IMG/VR virus record: IMGVR_UViG_3300037247_001518
Span: 1 to 22,861 of that record
DNA length: 22,861 nucleotides
Strand: one strand, 5' to 3'
From: a virus
Part shown: positions 12,320 through 22,861 of the stretch, in pieces
Numbering within the stretch: the first letter of the stretch is position 1
Layout of the letters: each line of letters starts with the position of its first letter
Notes under the pieces: model-generated
The model's database searches: none
Seen by the model: only the letters and a program-made list of their open reading frames with translations
Told to the model about the DNA's origin: nothing
Program-made: the position numbers and the translations under genes

Positions 12320-14359
12320 ATGGCGATCAAGTATTTCCTCAACTCGACCTCCGACGACACGACCTGTGACACCGTCGCGAAAAATCGCGACATGGACGAG
12401 ATTCAGGCGTCTCAACTCGACGTCACCTCGTCCACTGTCGGGTCGGATCAGGTCTGGACCGAGGCGATGGTCTGGGACGAGGACGTCACTGGCGACTCGC
12501 CCGGGACCGCTGACCACGAAGTCTCGATCGACGTCAACACGATCTCCTCCGGCGCGAGGGCGCGGTTCCGGATGCAGGCGGTCGACGACTCCGGCTGTGT
12601 CATCGATCACTCCTCCGCGTATTCCGCCGAGTTCACCGCGAACGGAATCTGGACGGCGACCCTCTCCCTGACGTGGGGCGCGGGGTCTGACCGTCTCCGC
12701 CTCTCCCTTGAGATATTCCGCGAGTCGGGACAGCACGGGAACAAGTCCGTCAACTTCAGCACCGGAGACGCCGACTCCTTCGTCAATTCTCTCTGGACCG
12801 CCGGAGGAGTCACCCACAACGGCGAGGCGGCCCTGTCGGTCTCGGCCGTTCTCGGCGCGAAGGCGAAGGTCACTCATTCGGCGAAGTGGTCGAGGTCGGC
12901 GTCGGCCGCTCTCACGGCGAAGCCGGAGGTCCTCCACTCCGCGAAGACCGCCCTCTCCGCCTCGGCGACACTCGCGGCCGAAGGGTCGGTCGCCGCCGTC
13001 AAGAAGGGTCAGGCGGCCCTGTCGGCCTCGGCCGTCCTCGGGGCGGTCGCCCGGGTCACTCACTCCGCGAAGGCCTCGGTCTCGGGCGTGGCGGCCCTGA
13101 CGGCGAAGGCTCAGGTCCTCCACTCCGCGAAGACCGCCCTCTCGGGGACCGCCGTCCTCGCGGCCGAGGGGGACGTCATCGTCGGGCTCACTCAGGGCAA
13201 GGCGGCCCTGTCCGCGTCGGCGGCCCTGACGGCGAAGGCTCAGGTCCTCCACTCCGCGAAGACCGCCCTCTCGGCGGCCGGGACCCTCGCCTCGAAGGCC
13301 CGGGTCGCCCACTCGGCGAAGGCGGCCCTCACGGGGACCGCGACCATCGTCGCCCGGTCGAGGCCGTTCGCCCTCGCGAAGGCGGCCCTCTCGGGTCTCG
13401 CGACCCTCCTCGCGAAGGGCCGGGTCACTCACTCGGCGAAGACCTCCCTCGCGGGAACCGGGGCGATCGCGGCGAGGGCCCGGGTCACTCACCCGGCGAA
13501 GGCCTCCCTCTCCGGGTCGGCGGTCCTCGCGGCCGAGGGGACGGCCGTCGCCCTCAGAAGGGGCGAGGCGGCCCTCACCGGAACCGCCACTCTCGGCGCG
13601 AAGGGTAGGGTCGCCCACCGGGCGAAGACGTCTCTCGCGGCCTCCTGCGTGGTCGCGGCGGCCCCTCTCGTCGCCCACCGGGCGAAGGCCGCCCTCACGG
13701 GGACGGCGACGGCCGTCTTCAAGGCGACCCCGATCGCGAACGCGAAGGCGGCCCTCACCGGGACGGCGGTCCTCGGGGCGAAGGCGACCGTCCTCCATTC
13801 CGCGAAGGCGGCCCTCACCGGAGTCGCGACCCTCGCGGCGAAGGGGCTCGTCCCCGAGACGATCCCCGGCGAGGCCTCCCTGACCGTCACGGCGATCCTC
13901 GGGGCCGTCGGGACTGTCCCTCCGAAGGGGAGGGCGACCCTCTTCGGATACGCTCACCTCTCTCCCTCGGCGTCGGTCCGGAAGGCCATGAAGGCGGCGC
14001 TCGAAGTCACGGCCGTCATGGAGGCGACCGGGACCGTCTCGGCCTCGGTGTCGTGGACTCAGTACCGGGCGGCCCGACTCTTCGACCGCGACCTCTGGGG
14101 GCCCGACGAGGAGGTGACGTTCACCTTCGTCGCGTGGGCGAAGAGGACGGGGTCGGCCGGGGCCCTCGTCCGCCTGTGGAACGTCACCGACGGCGTCGAG
14201 GTCGCCCGCGTCGAGACCGCCTCGACGTCATACGTCAGGCTCGAATCGGGCTCCTTCACTCTCTCGGGGGCGAAGGAGTACCGGGCCGAGGTCGGCGTGA
14301 AGACGGCCGCTCAGGCGGTCGAGTGTAACTACGCGGGGATCCGCGTCGTCTCAGAGTGA
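12320..14359 (+). CDS. Repeat-rich tail fibre-like protein
   Basis: The 679-residue protein has three regions. Residues 1 to about 167 form an N-terminal beta-rich domain (SARFRM-type strands, WTATLSLTWGAGSDRLRLSL), probably the virion anchor. Residues about 168-575 are some 20 tandem copies of a roughly 20-residue unit, consensus AKAALTGTATLAAKARVTHS, a few copies being 22-23 residues. Residues about 576-679 form a C-terminal beta-sandwich-like domain (VTFTFVAWAKRTGSAGALVR, then VRLESGSFTLSG), plausibly a lectin-type tip. Alternating small residues with a fixed period suggests a beta-solenoid or fibrous shaft. Functionally a tail fibre or decoration is inferred from context and architecture. 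The start follows the previous stop by three bases with GGGAG ten bases upstream. Confidence 0.72.
   Translation: MAIKYFLNSTSDDTTCDTVAKNRDMDEIQASQLDVTSSTVGSDQVWTEAMVWDEDVTGDSPGTADHEVSIDVNTISSGARARFRMQAVDDSGCVIDHSSAYSAEFTANGIWTATLSLTWGAGSDRLRLSLEIFRESGQHGNKSVNFSTGDADSFVNSLWTAGGVTHNGEAALSVSAVLGAKAKVTHSAKWSRSASAALTAKPEVLHSAKTALSASATLAAEGSVAAVKKGQAALSASAVLGAVARVTHSAKASVSGVAALTAKAQVLHSAKTALSGTAVLAAEGDVIVGLTQGKAALSASAALTAKAQVLHSAKTALSAAGTLASKARVAHSAKAALTGTATIVARSRPFALAKAALSGLATLLAKGRVTHSAKTSLAGTGAIAARARVTHPAKASLSGSAVLAAEGTAVALRRGEAALTGTATLGAKGRVAHRAKTSLAASCVVAAAPLVAHRAKAALTGTATAVFKATPIANAKAALTGTAVLGAKATVLHSAKAALTGVATLAAKGLVPETIPGEASLTVTAILGAVGTVPPKGRATLFGYAHLSPSASVRKAMKAALEVTAVMEATGTVSASVSWTQYRAARLFDRDLWGPDEEVTFTFVAWAKRTGSAGALVRLWNVTDGVEVARVETASTSYVRLESGSFTLSGAKEYRAEVGVKTAAQAVECNYAGIRVVSE
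12821..14050 (+). repeat. About 20 tandem repeats of approximately 60 bp (coding)
   Basis: The array encodes the shaft of the preceding fibre-like protein. Units mostly begin GCGAAGGCGGCCCTC and carry a CACTCGGCGAAG or CACTCCGCGAAG junction; most are 60 bases, with some 66 or 69 where GGxx-type insertions such as AAEGSVAAVKKGQ occur. Copies differ by several bases each, so the array is not freshly amplified, but two pairs are nearly identical (around 13093-13145 and 13222-13274, CTGACGGCGAAGGCTCAGG in both). Confidence 0.88.
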
Positions 14360-20480: not shown

Positions 20481-20972
20481 ATGAAGAGATCGTTCATGAA
20501 GTGGGGCCTCGCGTTCACGATCGGGGCCCTTCTGTTCACACCCGCCGTCGCCGAACGCGAACAGGAACTATCGTTCGGCCTCGATGGCGTCGTCTTCGAC
20601 AATAATGACAACCGGCTCGACCTCGCCCTCGAATGGCGTCTCCCTCTGGGGCGACTGTTCTCTCTGGGCCCGGTCCTGAACTGGAGTCAGGTCAAGGTCG
20701 ACCACGACAAGGCCTCTGTCTTCGGCCTCGGCGCGGTCGGGCGGTTCATCCTCGGAGGAGAGGGAACTCACTTCTATTTCTCGGCCGAGGCGGTGAAACT
20801 CTTCGAGGATCAGGAGGGGTACTTCGTCGCGCCCGGGTTCGGCGGCGTCCTCGGGGGCGATAACTTCTTCGTCGACCTCGGGATCGACCGACCGTTCAGG
20901 GGCGACACGGGCGACTCTCTCGCCTCGGATGATTCGTGGAGGACCCGCGCCCGCCTCGGGATCCGGTTCTGA
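20481..20972 (+). CDS. Small outer-membrane beta-barrel protein with signal peptide
   Basis: The 163-residue protein starts with a clear Sec signal peptide (MKRSFMKWGLAFTIGALLFT) and a signal peptidase I site AVA at residues 22-24, giving a mature chain of about 139 residues. That chain alternates polar and hydrophobic residues in strands (RLDLALEWRLPL, THFYFSAEAVKLF, NFFVDLGIDRPF) and ends TRARLGIRF with a terminal Phe, the established C-terminal signal of outer-membrane barrels. Size fits an eight-stranded barrel such as Lom, Ail or OmpX. It lies between a hairpin (20431-20470) and a terminator (21015-21058), the layout of a moron gene. A surface-modifying or superinfection role is inferred; a direct function in lysis is the alternative. 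Confidence 0.8.
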   Translation: MKRSFMKWGLAFTIGALLFTPAVAEREQELSFGLDGVVFDNNDNRLDLALEWRLPLGRLFSLGPVLNWSQVKVDHDKASVFGLGAVGRFILGGEGTHFYFSAEAVKLFEDQEGYFVAPGFGGVLGGDNFFVDLGIDRPFRGDTGDSLASDDSWRTRARLGIRF

Positions 20973-21014
20973 GGTGAAGGTCGGCGTTAGGGGACCCTCC
21001 CGCCGGCTGACACG

Positions 21015-21058
21015 CCCGGCCCCGTGATCGTACCGGCGCGGGGCCGGGTTCGTGTTAT
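21015..21058 (+). terminator. Rho-independent terminator of the rightward late operon
   Basis: Bases 21015-21024 (cccggccccg) pair perfectly with 21039-21048 (cggggccggg) around a 14-base loop. TTCGTGTTAT follows, a moderately T-rich run. It is the first strong hairpin after the last + strand gene. Confidence 0.75.
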
Positions 21059-21081
21059 CCTCGCCTCGTCTGATGTCACGG

Positions 21082-21134
21082 CGACAAAGACAAGAACGCC
21101 CCGGGAGGGCCAGCTACCCGCCCCGGGGCGTTCT
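21082..21134 (-). terminator. Rho-independent terminator of the leftward operon
   Basis: Bases 21093-21105 (agaacgccccggg) pair perfectly over 13 positions with 21122-21134 (cccggggcgttct). Read on the - strand, the stem is followed by TGTCTTTGTC, giving a T-rich tail continuous with the TTCT of the stem. It lies 33 bases past the stop of the last leftward gene. Confidence 0.8.
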
Positions 21135-21135
21135 C

Positions 21136-21177
21136 CCGTCGGTCAGGGAAGGAGGTCGCCTTGACCCTTACCGACGG
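21136..21177 (-). promoter_or_regulatory. 3'-UTR hairpin whose loop is complementary to the operon's ribosome binding sites
   Basis: Bases 21136-21148 pair with 21165-21177 at 12 of 13 positions, with a 16-base loop (21149-21164). The stem includes the TAA stop of the last leftward gene. On the - strand the loop reads TCAAGGCGACCTCCTT, which is complementary at 15 of 16 positions to AAGGAGGTCGCCATGA at the start of the first leftward gene. Antisense regulation is a hypothesis. Confidence 0.6.
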
Positions 21178-21458
21178 AACGCTTTCGCCTCGACGACCAT
21201 CTTCACCGAACCCGACACGACCCGCGACTTCATCGCCCGGACACAGGTCGGACAGAGTTTCCGGAACCTGACATCGGGGATGAAGTCGAAAAGGTCGACC
21301 CGCCTCTCGGACATAGCGCGGCCGCAGAACGACCACACCATCGGGCCCGAGATGACCGACACCGGGTCGCGACTTCGACGCTGAGTCATCGCCTCAGAGA
21401 CCGCGTGGAGGCTCATCCCGAAGAGGCCGATCACTCCCCACCTCGCCCGGCCCTTCAT
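21168..21458 (-). CDS. Small Cys-containing early protein, unknown
   Basis: The 96-residue product is read leftward from an ATG that overlaps the stop of the preceding gene (ATGA) and has GGGAGG six bases upstream. The N-terminus is short and hydrophobic (GVIGLFGMSLHAV). The second half has Cys45 (SFCGRA) and Cys69/Cys72 (KLCPTCVRAM), suggesting a partial zinc-knuckle, though a fourth ligand is not obvious. I do not recognise a family. It is last in the leftward operon; its stop codon is inside a hairpin stem. Confidence 0.7.
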   Translation of the reverse strand: MKGRARWGVIGLFGMSLHAVSEAMTQRRSRDPVSVISGPMVWSFCGRAMSERRVDLFDFIPDVRFRKLCPTCVRAMKSRVVSGSVKMVVEAKAFRR

Positions 21459-22165
21459 GACCGACCTCCCGACAGGATCGACCGCTGGAAAATCCGAAGA
21501 CCCTTGATCTCTCGAACCCCTTCGCGGATCGCACCGTTGACCGCCTTCGGGTCGAGGAGGAGATACACCGCCGGGACCTTGTTGATATTCTCGACCTCGA
21601 ACGTCCACACCTTCCGGACCGTCGCCTTCGACCTCGGCGTCTCGATCGTCGTGACCGGGACGGGCGGGAGGATGATCGGGCTCTCGTCCTTGACCGCCTC
21701 GGCCTCCAGTTCCGCGAGTTCGGTCGACTCCTCCTCGGTGAACCCGGCCTCGATGGCCTCCGCCTCCGCCGTCTTCCGGGCCTCCTCCGCCTCGGCCTCG
21801 GCCTTCACGCGGGCCTCCTCGACCTTCCGGCGATGTTCCTCGCGGGCGAGGCGTTCGACCTCCGCCGTATAATCGAGGATGTCCTTCTTGACGACCCCTT
21901 CGAGACGGGCGAGTTCGACGGCGAGAGGCCTGACCCCGGCGTTAATGAAGAGGACATGATCGTTCAGGGGCTTGACGAGGGAGACCCTCATCGCCTCGAC
22001 CCTCTTCTTCCGGGCGAGGATCAGGCCGAGGACGTCGGTCCCGACGGCGACAGACGCCGCGTCGAAGACGCGGAGGTCGTGGACCTTGTCCGTCAGGAGA
22101 CCGATACCCGTTCGGATCTCGTCGATCTCTTCCTGTTCGTGAATTGCGATCGCTCCTTCACTCAT
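21455..22165 (-). CDS. Coiled-coil phage protein (DUF1351-like), unknown role
   Basis: The 236-residue protein begins MSEGAIAIHEQEEIDEIRTG. The start is fixed by AAGGAGG six bases upstream; an open extension to 22312 overlaps the previous gene and is rejected. Residues about 95-180 form a long charged coiled coil (ARLEGVVKKDILDYTAEVER, REEHRRKVEEARVKAEAEAE). The C-terminal 75 residues read VRKVWTFEVENINKVPAVYL and AIREGVREIKGLRIF, a pattern I associate with a common family of phage coiled-coil proteins often encoded near single-strand annealing proteins. A recombination-linked role is possible but not demonstrated here. Confidence 0.72.
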   Translation of the reverse strand: MSEGAIAIHEQEEIDEIRTGIGLLTDKVHDLRVFDAASVAVGTDVLGLILARKKRVEAMRVSLVKPLNDHVLFINAGVRPLAVELARLEGVVKKDILDYTAEVERLAREEHRRKVEEARVKAEAEAEEARKTAEAEAIEAGFTEEESTELAELEAEAVKDESPIILPPVPVTTIETPRSKATVRKVWTFEVENINKVPAVYLLLDPKAVNGAIREGVREIKGLRIFQRSILSGGRS

Positions 22166-22178
22166 GACGACCTCCTTT

Positions 22179-22424
22179 TTATCTGAGAAACAAACACTCG
22201 AACGCCTCGTTCTGGTAGAACTCCGCCGAGGTCGAGGCGAAGATCGTTCCCGACTCGTTTCGACCGATACTCCAGATCCATGATTCGGTTTCGGCGTCAC
22301 AATAATCGACATACTCGACGAACCGGGCTAGCTGAAACCGGCCGCCACCTAGAGATGATCCCTCCTTCCGAACATCGAGACAATCTCCCGACTTCAACTT
22401 CTCCTCCATGCGGAGATTCCTCAT
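22179..22424 (-). CDS. Small conserved-looking phage protein, unknown
   Basis: The 81-residue protein starts at an ATG overlapping the preceding stop (ATGA, 22424-22421) with AAGGAGGTCGTC directly before it. It reads MRNLRMEEKLKSGDCLDVRK and ends AEFYQNEAFECLFLR, preceded by WIWSIGRNESGTIFAST. The WIWSIGR ... FYQN ... ECLxLR ending is one I recall from many small uncharacterised phage proteins, mostly of proteobacterial phages; I cannot give a function. Two Cys (15 and 42) plus Cys78 are scattered rather than paired. Confidence 0.72.
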   Translation of the reverse strand: MRNLRMEEKLKSGDCLDVRKEGSSLGGGRFQLARFVEYVDYCDAETESWIWSIGRNESGTIFASTSAEFYQNEAFECLFLR

Positions 22425-22756
22425 GACGACCTCCTTTGATTGTAGATAGCACCGCCCAAGAACGCCCACTGACAGAGACCGCAGGCCTCAAGAATGGGGT
22501 CTCCCGCGTAGTCGCGATACCCGAAGACGTTCAGGCCGAGACCGTGACACCGGACACAACCCGGGTCGAACCCGGAGACCTCGTCGATCTCACCGCACAC
22601 CTGACACTCGACCTCAGTCTCGAATGAGAGACCGTCACGGTCGCCCTCGCACCACCACGCGACGATCTCGAACCTCTCGTCGTTCGTCCCGCATATCTGA
22701 CACCCGTCGAACTGGAGTTCCTCGACCTTCCGCTCTGTCCTATCTGACATTCTCAT
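22421..22756 (-). CDS. Double zinc-ribbon early protein, unknown
   Basis: The 111-residue protein carries four CxxC pairs: Cys19/22 (GCQICG), Cys51/54 (ECQVCG), Cys67/70 (GCVRCHG) and Cys92/95 (ACGLC). Pairing 1 with 2 and 3 with 4 gives two zinc ribbons. The start ATG at 22756 has AAGGAGGTCGCC directly before it and lies just downstream of a candidate promoter; the frame is open further upstream but that part contains the promoter and ribosome binding site. Nucleic-acid binding or a regulatory role is plausible but unproven. It is first in the operon seen in this window. Confidence 0.75.
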   Translation of the reverse strand: MRMSDRTERKVEELQFDGCQICGTNDERFEIVAWWCEGDRDGLSFETEVECQVCGEIDEVSGFDPGCVRCHGLGLNVFGYRDYAGDPILEACGLCQWAFLGGAIYNQRRSS

Positions 22757-22768
22757 GGCGACCTCCTT
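22757..22768 (-). promoter_or_regulatory. Ribosome binding site shared in form by the leftward genes
   Basis: The leader AAGGAGGTCGCC here recurs as AAGGAGGTCGTC at 22425-22436 and 22166-22177 and as GGGAGGTCGGTC at 21459-21470, each directly before an ATGA. The extended match beyond the Shine-Dalgarno core is unusual. Confidence 0.8.
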
Positions 22769-22771
22769 GTC

Positions 22772-22807
22772 TGCGGTCAATGTACCACGACTACGACGGG
22801 CCGTCAA
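22772..22807 (-). promoter_or_regulatory. Candidate sigma70-like promoter of the leftward operon
   Basis: On the - strand TTGACG (22807-22802) is followed after 17 bases by TACATT (22784-22779). This is five of six and four of six consensus matches at ideal spacing. Transcription would begin near 22772, a few bases before the AAGGAGG of the first gene, giving a very short leader. The remaining bases to 22861 show no gene. Confidence 0.6.
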
Positions 22808-22861
22808 CCGGAATCTCGGATTATCTCAGGGCCCCGTTATGTCCTCCGGAGGGGACACAAA

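Follow-up and report, generated by a model that had tools for sequence, protein, structure and literature searches.

The stretch of DNA that we analysed, referred to here as the window, is the whole of the virus record IMGVR_UViG_3300037247_001518 (22,861 bases, positions 1 to 22,861), and it holds a rightward block of structural genes and then, where the record ends on the right, a group of four leftward genes (22756-21168) packed so closely that neighbors overlap or almost abut. The leftward ORFs have the codon-position G+C pattern typical of genes, and we infer that the four are transcribed as a single unit. A promoter-like site found by consensus scan would have this mRNA start a few bases upstream of the first leader, although the site is a consensus guess rather than a start with proof of use. 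At its other end, the operon has a strong intrinsic terminator. On the opposite strand, a GC-rich hairpin at 21015-21049 (+), itself followed by a T-rich stretch, faces the leftward terminator, and so the terminators of the two gene blocks seem to be convergent.

Our concern in what follows is a second leftward hairpin, which sits at the last stop codon of the operon, upstream of the terminator, and whose 5' arm contains the TAA of gene 4 (21170-21168). An earlier note on this DNA had pointed to this hairpin, and the coordinates that it gave are all correct; a hairpin scan returned the same 12/13-bp stem and the same loop, 21164-21149. The predicted fold has an inner helix, AAGG/CCUU, that closes part of the loop and leaves only CGACCU unpaired at the tip. 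The loop also contains ACCUCCUU, the 3' end of 16S rRNA, a piece of mimicry that the note had described as well. Coordinates of these features and of the leaders are collected in Table 1.

Table 1. Features of the leftward operon and its flanks (positions in the window)
Feature	Position	Strand	Description
Promoter-like site	22779..22807	-	TTGACG-17-TACATT, TG before -10; consensus scan, 9/12 positions
Leader 1	22753..22768	-	AAGGAGGTCGCCATGA; spans RBS and start codon of gene 1; complementary to loop in 15/16
Gene 1	22421..22756	-	111 aa, cysteine-rich (CxxC pairs); without family match
Leader 2	22421..22436	-	AAGGAGGTCGTCATGA; 12-mer AAGGAGGTCGTC at 22436-22425 pairs 12/12 with loop, one G-U
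Gene 2	22179..22424	-	81 aa; without family match
Leader 3	22162..22177	-	AAGGAGGTCGTCATGA; 12-mer AAGGAGGTCGTC at 22177-22166 pairs 12/12 with loop, one G-U
Gene 3	21455..22165	-	236 aa; match to phrog_10477 (labelled exonuclease), E = 3.6e-11
Leader 4	21455..21470	-	GGGAGGTCGGTCATGA; 9 bp with loop
Gene 4	21168..21458	-	96 aa, CxxC (LCPTC); last gene of operon
3'-end hairpin	21136..21177	-	Stem 12/13 bp; reads CCGTCGGTAAGGG / TCAAGGCGACCTCCTT / CCCTGACCGACGG (21177-21136)
Hairpin loop	21149..21164	-	TCAAGGCGACCTCCTT, 16 nt; complementary to leaders 1-3
Intrinsic terminator	21093..21134	-	Perfect 13-bp stem, then T-rich stretch; strong

Predicted Pairing Between the Loop and the Leaders

What does a loop at the end of a message have to do with the beginnings of its genes? 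The identical 12-mer AAGGAGGTCGYC stands immediately upstream of ATGA in three of the four leftward leaders, with a related version in the fourth, and a search of the whole record for the motif AAGGAGGTCGYCNTG, allowing at most one mismatch, finds four sites, namely, those three leaders and the loop. Each of the four leftward leaders contains AGGUCG, the complement of the loop tip CGACCU, and the 21 rightward leaders compared all lack it. The 15/16 complementarity that the earlier note had claimed between the loop and the RBS and start region of gene 1 (22768-22753) was found again, and its match to two further leaders, tolerant of G-U pairing, runs the full length of the 12-mer at the cost of one G-U in each.

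Net pairing energies, which include the cost of opening both partners, come to -13.8 kcal/mol for leader 1, -13.8 kcal/mol for leader 2, and -14.7 kcal/mol for leader 3; pairing is weaker for leader 4 (-5.5 kcal/mol) and for the 21 rightward leaders (-7.6 kcal/mol at best). By these predictions, pairing of the loop is thermodynamically favorable and selective for leaders 1-3. For the full-length message, of 1686 nt from likely start to terminator, an equilibrium partition function for naked RNA without ribosomes or proteins, with the transcript start a consensus guess, gives 6.7 expected pairs between loop and leader 1; earlier starts give 9.5 and 12.6. When the middle of the transcript was shuffled, the expectation exceeded 11 pairs in 8 of 10 cases, and when the loop was scrambled, it was 0 in 10 of 10 transcripts. 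In its minimum-energy structure, the native transcript retains the local hairpin, and the best structures forced to pair leader 1 or leader 2 in cis lie 1-2 kcal/mol above the overall minimum, so that by this calculation the cis duplex only competes with other folds.

A Possible Feedback from the End of the Message

Because the loop is nearly perfectly complementary to the RBSs of its own operon, the tail of the message could lower its own translation. We propose, as the best of the readings considered but a tentative one that we place just short of probable, that the mRNA of the leftward operon may carry at its 3' end an antisense element directed at its own RBSs or, in other words, a device of negative autoregulation. 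Transcription of the operon to its terminator would produce a hairpin whose CGACCU tip meets the AGGUCG of a leader; the inner helix would then open, and a 12-bp duplex would form, extending to as much as 15/16 with leader 1. Such a duplex would mask the Shine-Dalgarno sequence and what lies between it and the start codon, blocking binding of the 30S subunit at genes 1-3, and it may also form a substrate for RNase III. The action could take place within one mRNA, 5' end to 3' end, or between molecules, and the trans route would perhaps use a terminator-ended fragment remaining from mRNA decay or a released small RNA. The outcome would be negative feedback, in which more finished message means less translation.

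We infer, then, that the loop would be available in the cell, that it would repress, and that it would do so in cis or in trans. The earlier note had suggested an antisense element of just this kind, and the suggestion is plausible, since the pairing is favorable and selective and the fold of the whole transcript favors pairing of its two ends; plausible is as far as it goes, and no relative with the operon was found in the searches described below. Against feedback stand the partial closing of the loop by its inner helix and the calculation in which the cis duplex only competes with other folds. Ribosomes finishing gene 4 would disturb the hairpin, whose stem contains the stop codon, and three strong leaders are hardly what one expects of an operon destined for weak translation; both points count against feedback too.

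Might a single hairpin be the shared off-switch for all of the cistrons of a phage operon, a one-to-many and self-encoded translational brake? The thought arises from the near identity of the cistrons' leaders, which suit the one loop, and we regard it as unlikely. Were the proposed feedback real, several phage genes would be controlled together by repeated leaders and a single 3' loop, without a dedicated protein. The 3'-end feedback of Vibrio and Staphylococcus would then have a counterpart in a phage, and one could suspect that the leaders repeated along other phage operons are at times addresses for regulation as well as strong RBSs.

Relation to Known Systems

Feedback from the 3' end of a message is known from Vibrio cholerae, where OppZ and CarZ are autoregulatory 3'-UTR small RNAs (PMC7398697). 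The phage hairpin resembles them in its position, between the last stop codon, which it adjoins, and a Rho-independent terminator, and in being complementary to the translation start regions of its own operon; pairing of OppZ and CarZ with their own operon transcripts inhibits translation, which is the effect predicted here. There are differences too. OppZ is released by RNase E and requires Hfq, and pairing in cis has been excluded for it (PMC7398697). The phage element, unlike OppZ and CarZ, matches three or four leaders of one operon.

In Staphylococcus aureus, an anti-Shine-Dalgarno motif in the icaR 3'-UTR binds the Shine-Dalgarno sequence of the same mRNA, in cis or in trans, which blocks ribosome loading and forms a substrate for RNase III (PMC3868564). 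In the phage operon, a 3' motif likewise pairs with a Shine-Dalgarno sequence in the full-length fold, here by calculation only. The icaR motif is seven nucleotides long, lies 260 nt after the stop codon, and serves a single gene, whereas the phage match is of 12 to 15 bp, lies right at the stop codon, and belongs to a polycistronic operon. The UCCC-motif small RNAs of S. aureus, RNAIII and RsaE, also pair with Shine-Dalgarno sequences through a C-rich motif (PMC3868564). These, however, are separate genes with mRNA targets in trans.

The C4 RNA of phages P1 and P7 is made from the transcript that it regulates. It lies upstream of its target and has a conserved fold of its own, and in both respects, it differs from the hairpin described here. 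Rfam had no family at gathering score in the whole window, and in 20900-22861, it gave two sub-threshold matches only, both at chance level and neither of them C4. In P1 and P7, C4 blocks translation of ant by binding around the RBS, and its complementary sequences are likely to be in loops, so that it shares with the present case the idea of a phage antisense RNA against an RBS region (PMC12197685).

With icaR, OppZ and CarZ, and C4 all known, a claim of no precedent is too strong, and the earlier note, which knew of no described phage control of this form, overstated the case, given what C4 does at the RBS of ant (PMC12197685) and how close the layouts of OppZ and CarZ (PMC7398697) and of icaR (PMC3868564) are. 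What differs from the known systems is the length of the match, the fit of one loop to several cistrons, and the setting in a phage operon.

Alternative Explanations

The serious rival to feedback is a neutral or historical one: template switching or some similar event, of the kind that also gave the operon its several copies of the leader, would have left an inverted copy as the loop, and the hairpin would do no more than protect the 3' end or aid termination. The leader is indeed an 18-nt direct repeat, with copies in three places, the inverted match to leader 1 is prolonged, weakly, to 21 nt (CAG..AAGGAGGTCGCC.TGA, 18/21), and the neighboring terminator alone is enough to end transcription. 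Nor did we find relatives in which the loop might have been seen to persist. Operon DNA searched against phage and plasmid collections gave no relative with the operon, gene 3 searched against viral contigs, genome contigs, and phages gave no sequence holding it, and searches with genes 1 and 4 and with a neighboring gene ended in the same way; taken together, the searches covered phage, plasmid, viral-contig, and genome collections.

Elsewhere, we found the loop sequence in 16 viral stretches and a loop- or leader-like pattern in 29 genomic ones, none of them in a comparable hairpin; where the loop sequence turned up, it belonged to an ordinary leader or to other sequence. Thus, nothing shows a recurring element, and there is room for a neutral origin as an inverted copy. 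Two features sit poorly with it, however. The strong match stops almost exactly at the borders of the loop, and the tip fits all four leaders, which is not required of a random inverted copy. We give this explanation real weight while thinking it somewhat less than likely, and we note that an inverted leader copy could be raw material for regulation as well.

It is improbable, in our estimate, that the loop is instead a general anti-Shine-Dalgarno decoy, or a trans RNA, aimed at mRNAs of the host or of other phages and not at its own operon. Such a role would suit the 16S-like ACCUCCUU in the loop and the fact that leaders of the AAGGAGGTCGYCNTG type are common in viral and bacterial contigs, but the remaining leaders of this phage pair weakly, and the complementarity reaches past the anti-Shine-Dalgarno core into bases that are specific to the operon.

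How far could chance alone take a GC-rich hairpin loop? The observation is a post hoc one from a single window, in which it is not rare for a 16-mer, away from the loop as well, to match the surroundings of the four leaders in 13-14/16 at one offset or another (11 reach 14/16, of which 4 overlap the loop itself). We set it against a hairpin survey of the window plus 135 further viral contigs (1.32 Mb), which took stems of 9 or more paired bases with loops of 8-22 and scored each loop against start regions on the same strand. Among the 1840 hairpins in these 136 contigs, the 3'-end hairpin is the clear outlier with a score of 13, the runner-up having 10. For this match, picked post hoc as it was, the probability of at least 15/16 with the anti-Shine-Dalgarno core taken as fixed is P = 1.3e-4, or about 1 in 7700 tries. 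What is improbable is not the near match alone but its occurrence in a hairpin loop with which the same operon ends, and a survey of contigs that use the same leader gave no second case of the same geometry of hairpin and leader. Chance is, we think, unlikely but not negligible.

Hardly credible at all is a plus-strand gene for which AAGGAGGTCGCCTTG (21149-21163) would be the RBS, followed at acceptable spacing by a TTG start and a rightward 36-codon ORF; we rejected it on length and codon-position composition, for the ORF has only 36 aa, is antisense to gene 4, and has codon-position G+C of 0.51, 0.78, and 0.51, where real genes are high at the third position, and its RBS would lie within a hairpin loop, with two strong terminator-like hairpins ahead of it.

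Other Features of the Record

Searches with the capsid and portal proteins led to one contig, IMGVR_UViG_3300043256_000460, whose versions of the two are identical; judging by its length, it stops short of the operon. It runs about 2.3 kb past the left end of the window.

On the + strand, a single 725-aa ORF (586-2763) combines a portal protein with a head-morphogenesis (minor capsid) region, which are encoded by separate genes in Marinomonas phage P12026 and others; here, an Asp-rich linker, DDDDADDDDADADDDDDAADDDDD, connects the two parts. The + strand also encodes a 679-aa protein (12320-14359) with many imperfect tandem repeats of the AKAALTGTATLAAKGRV type, which is probably structural or fibre-like.
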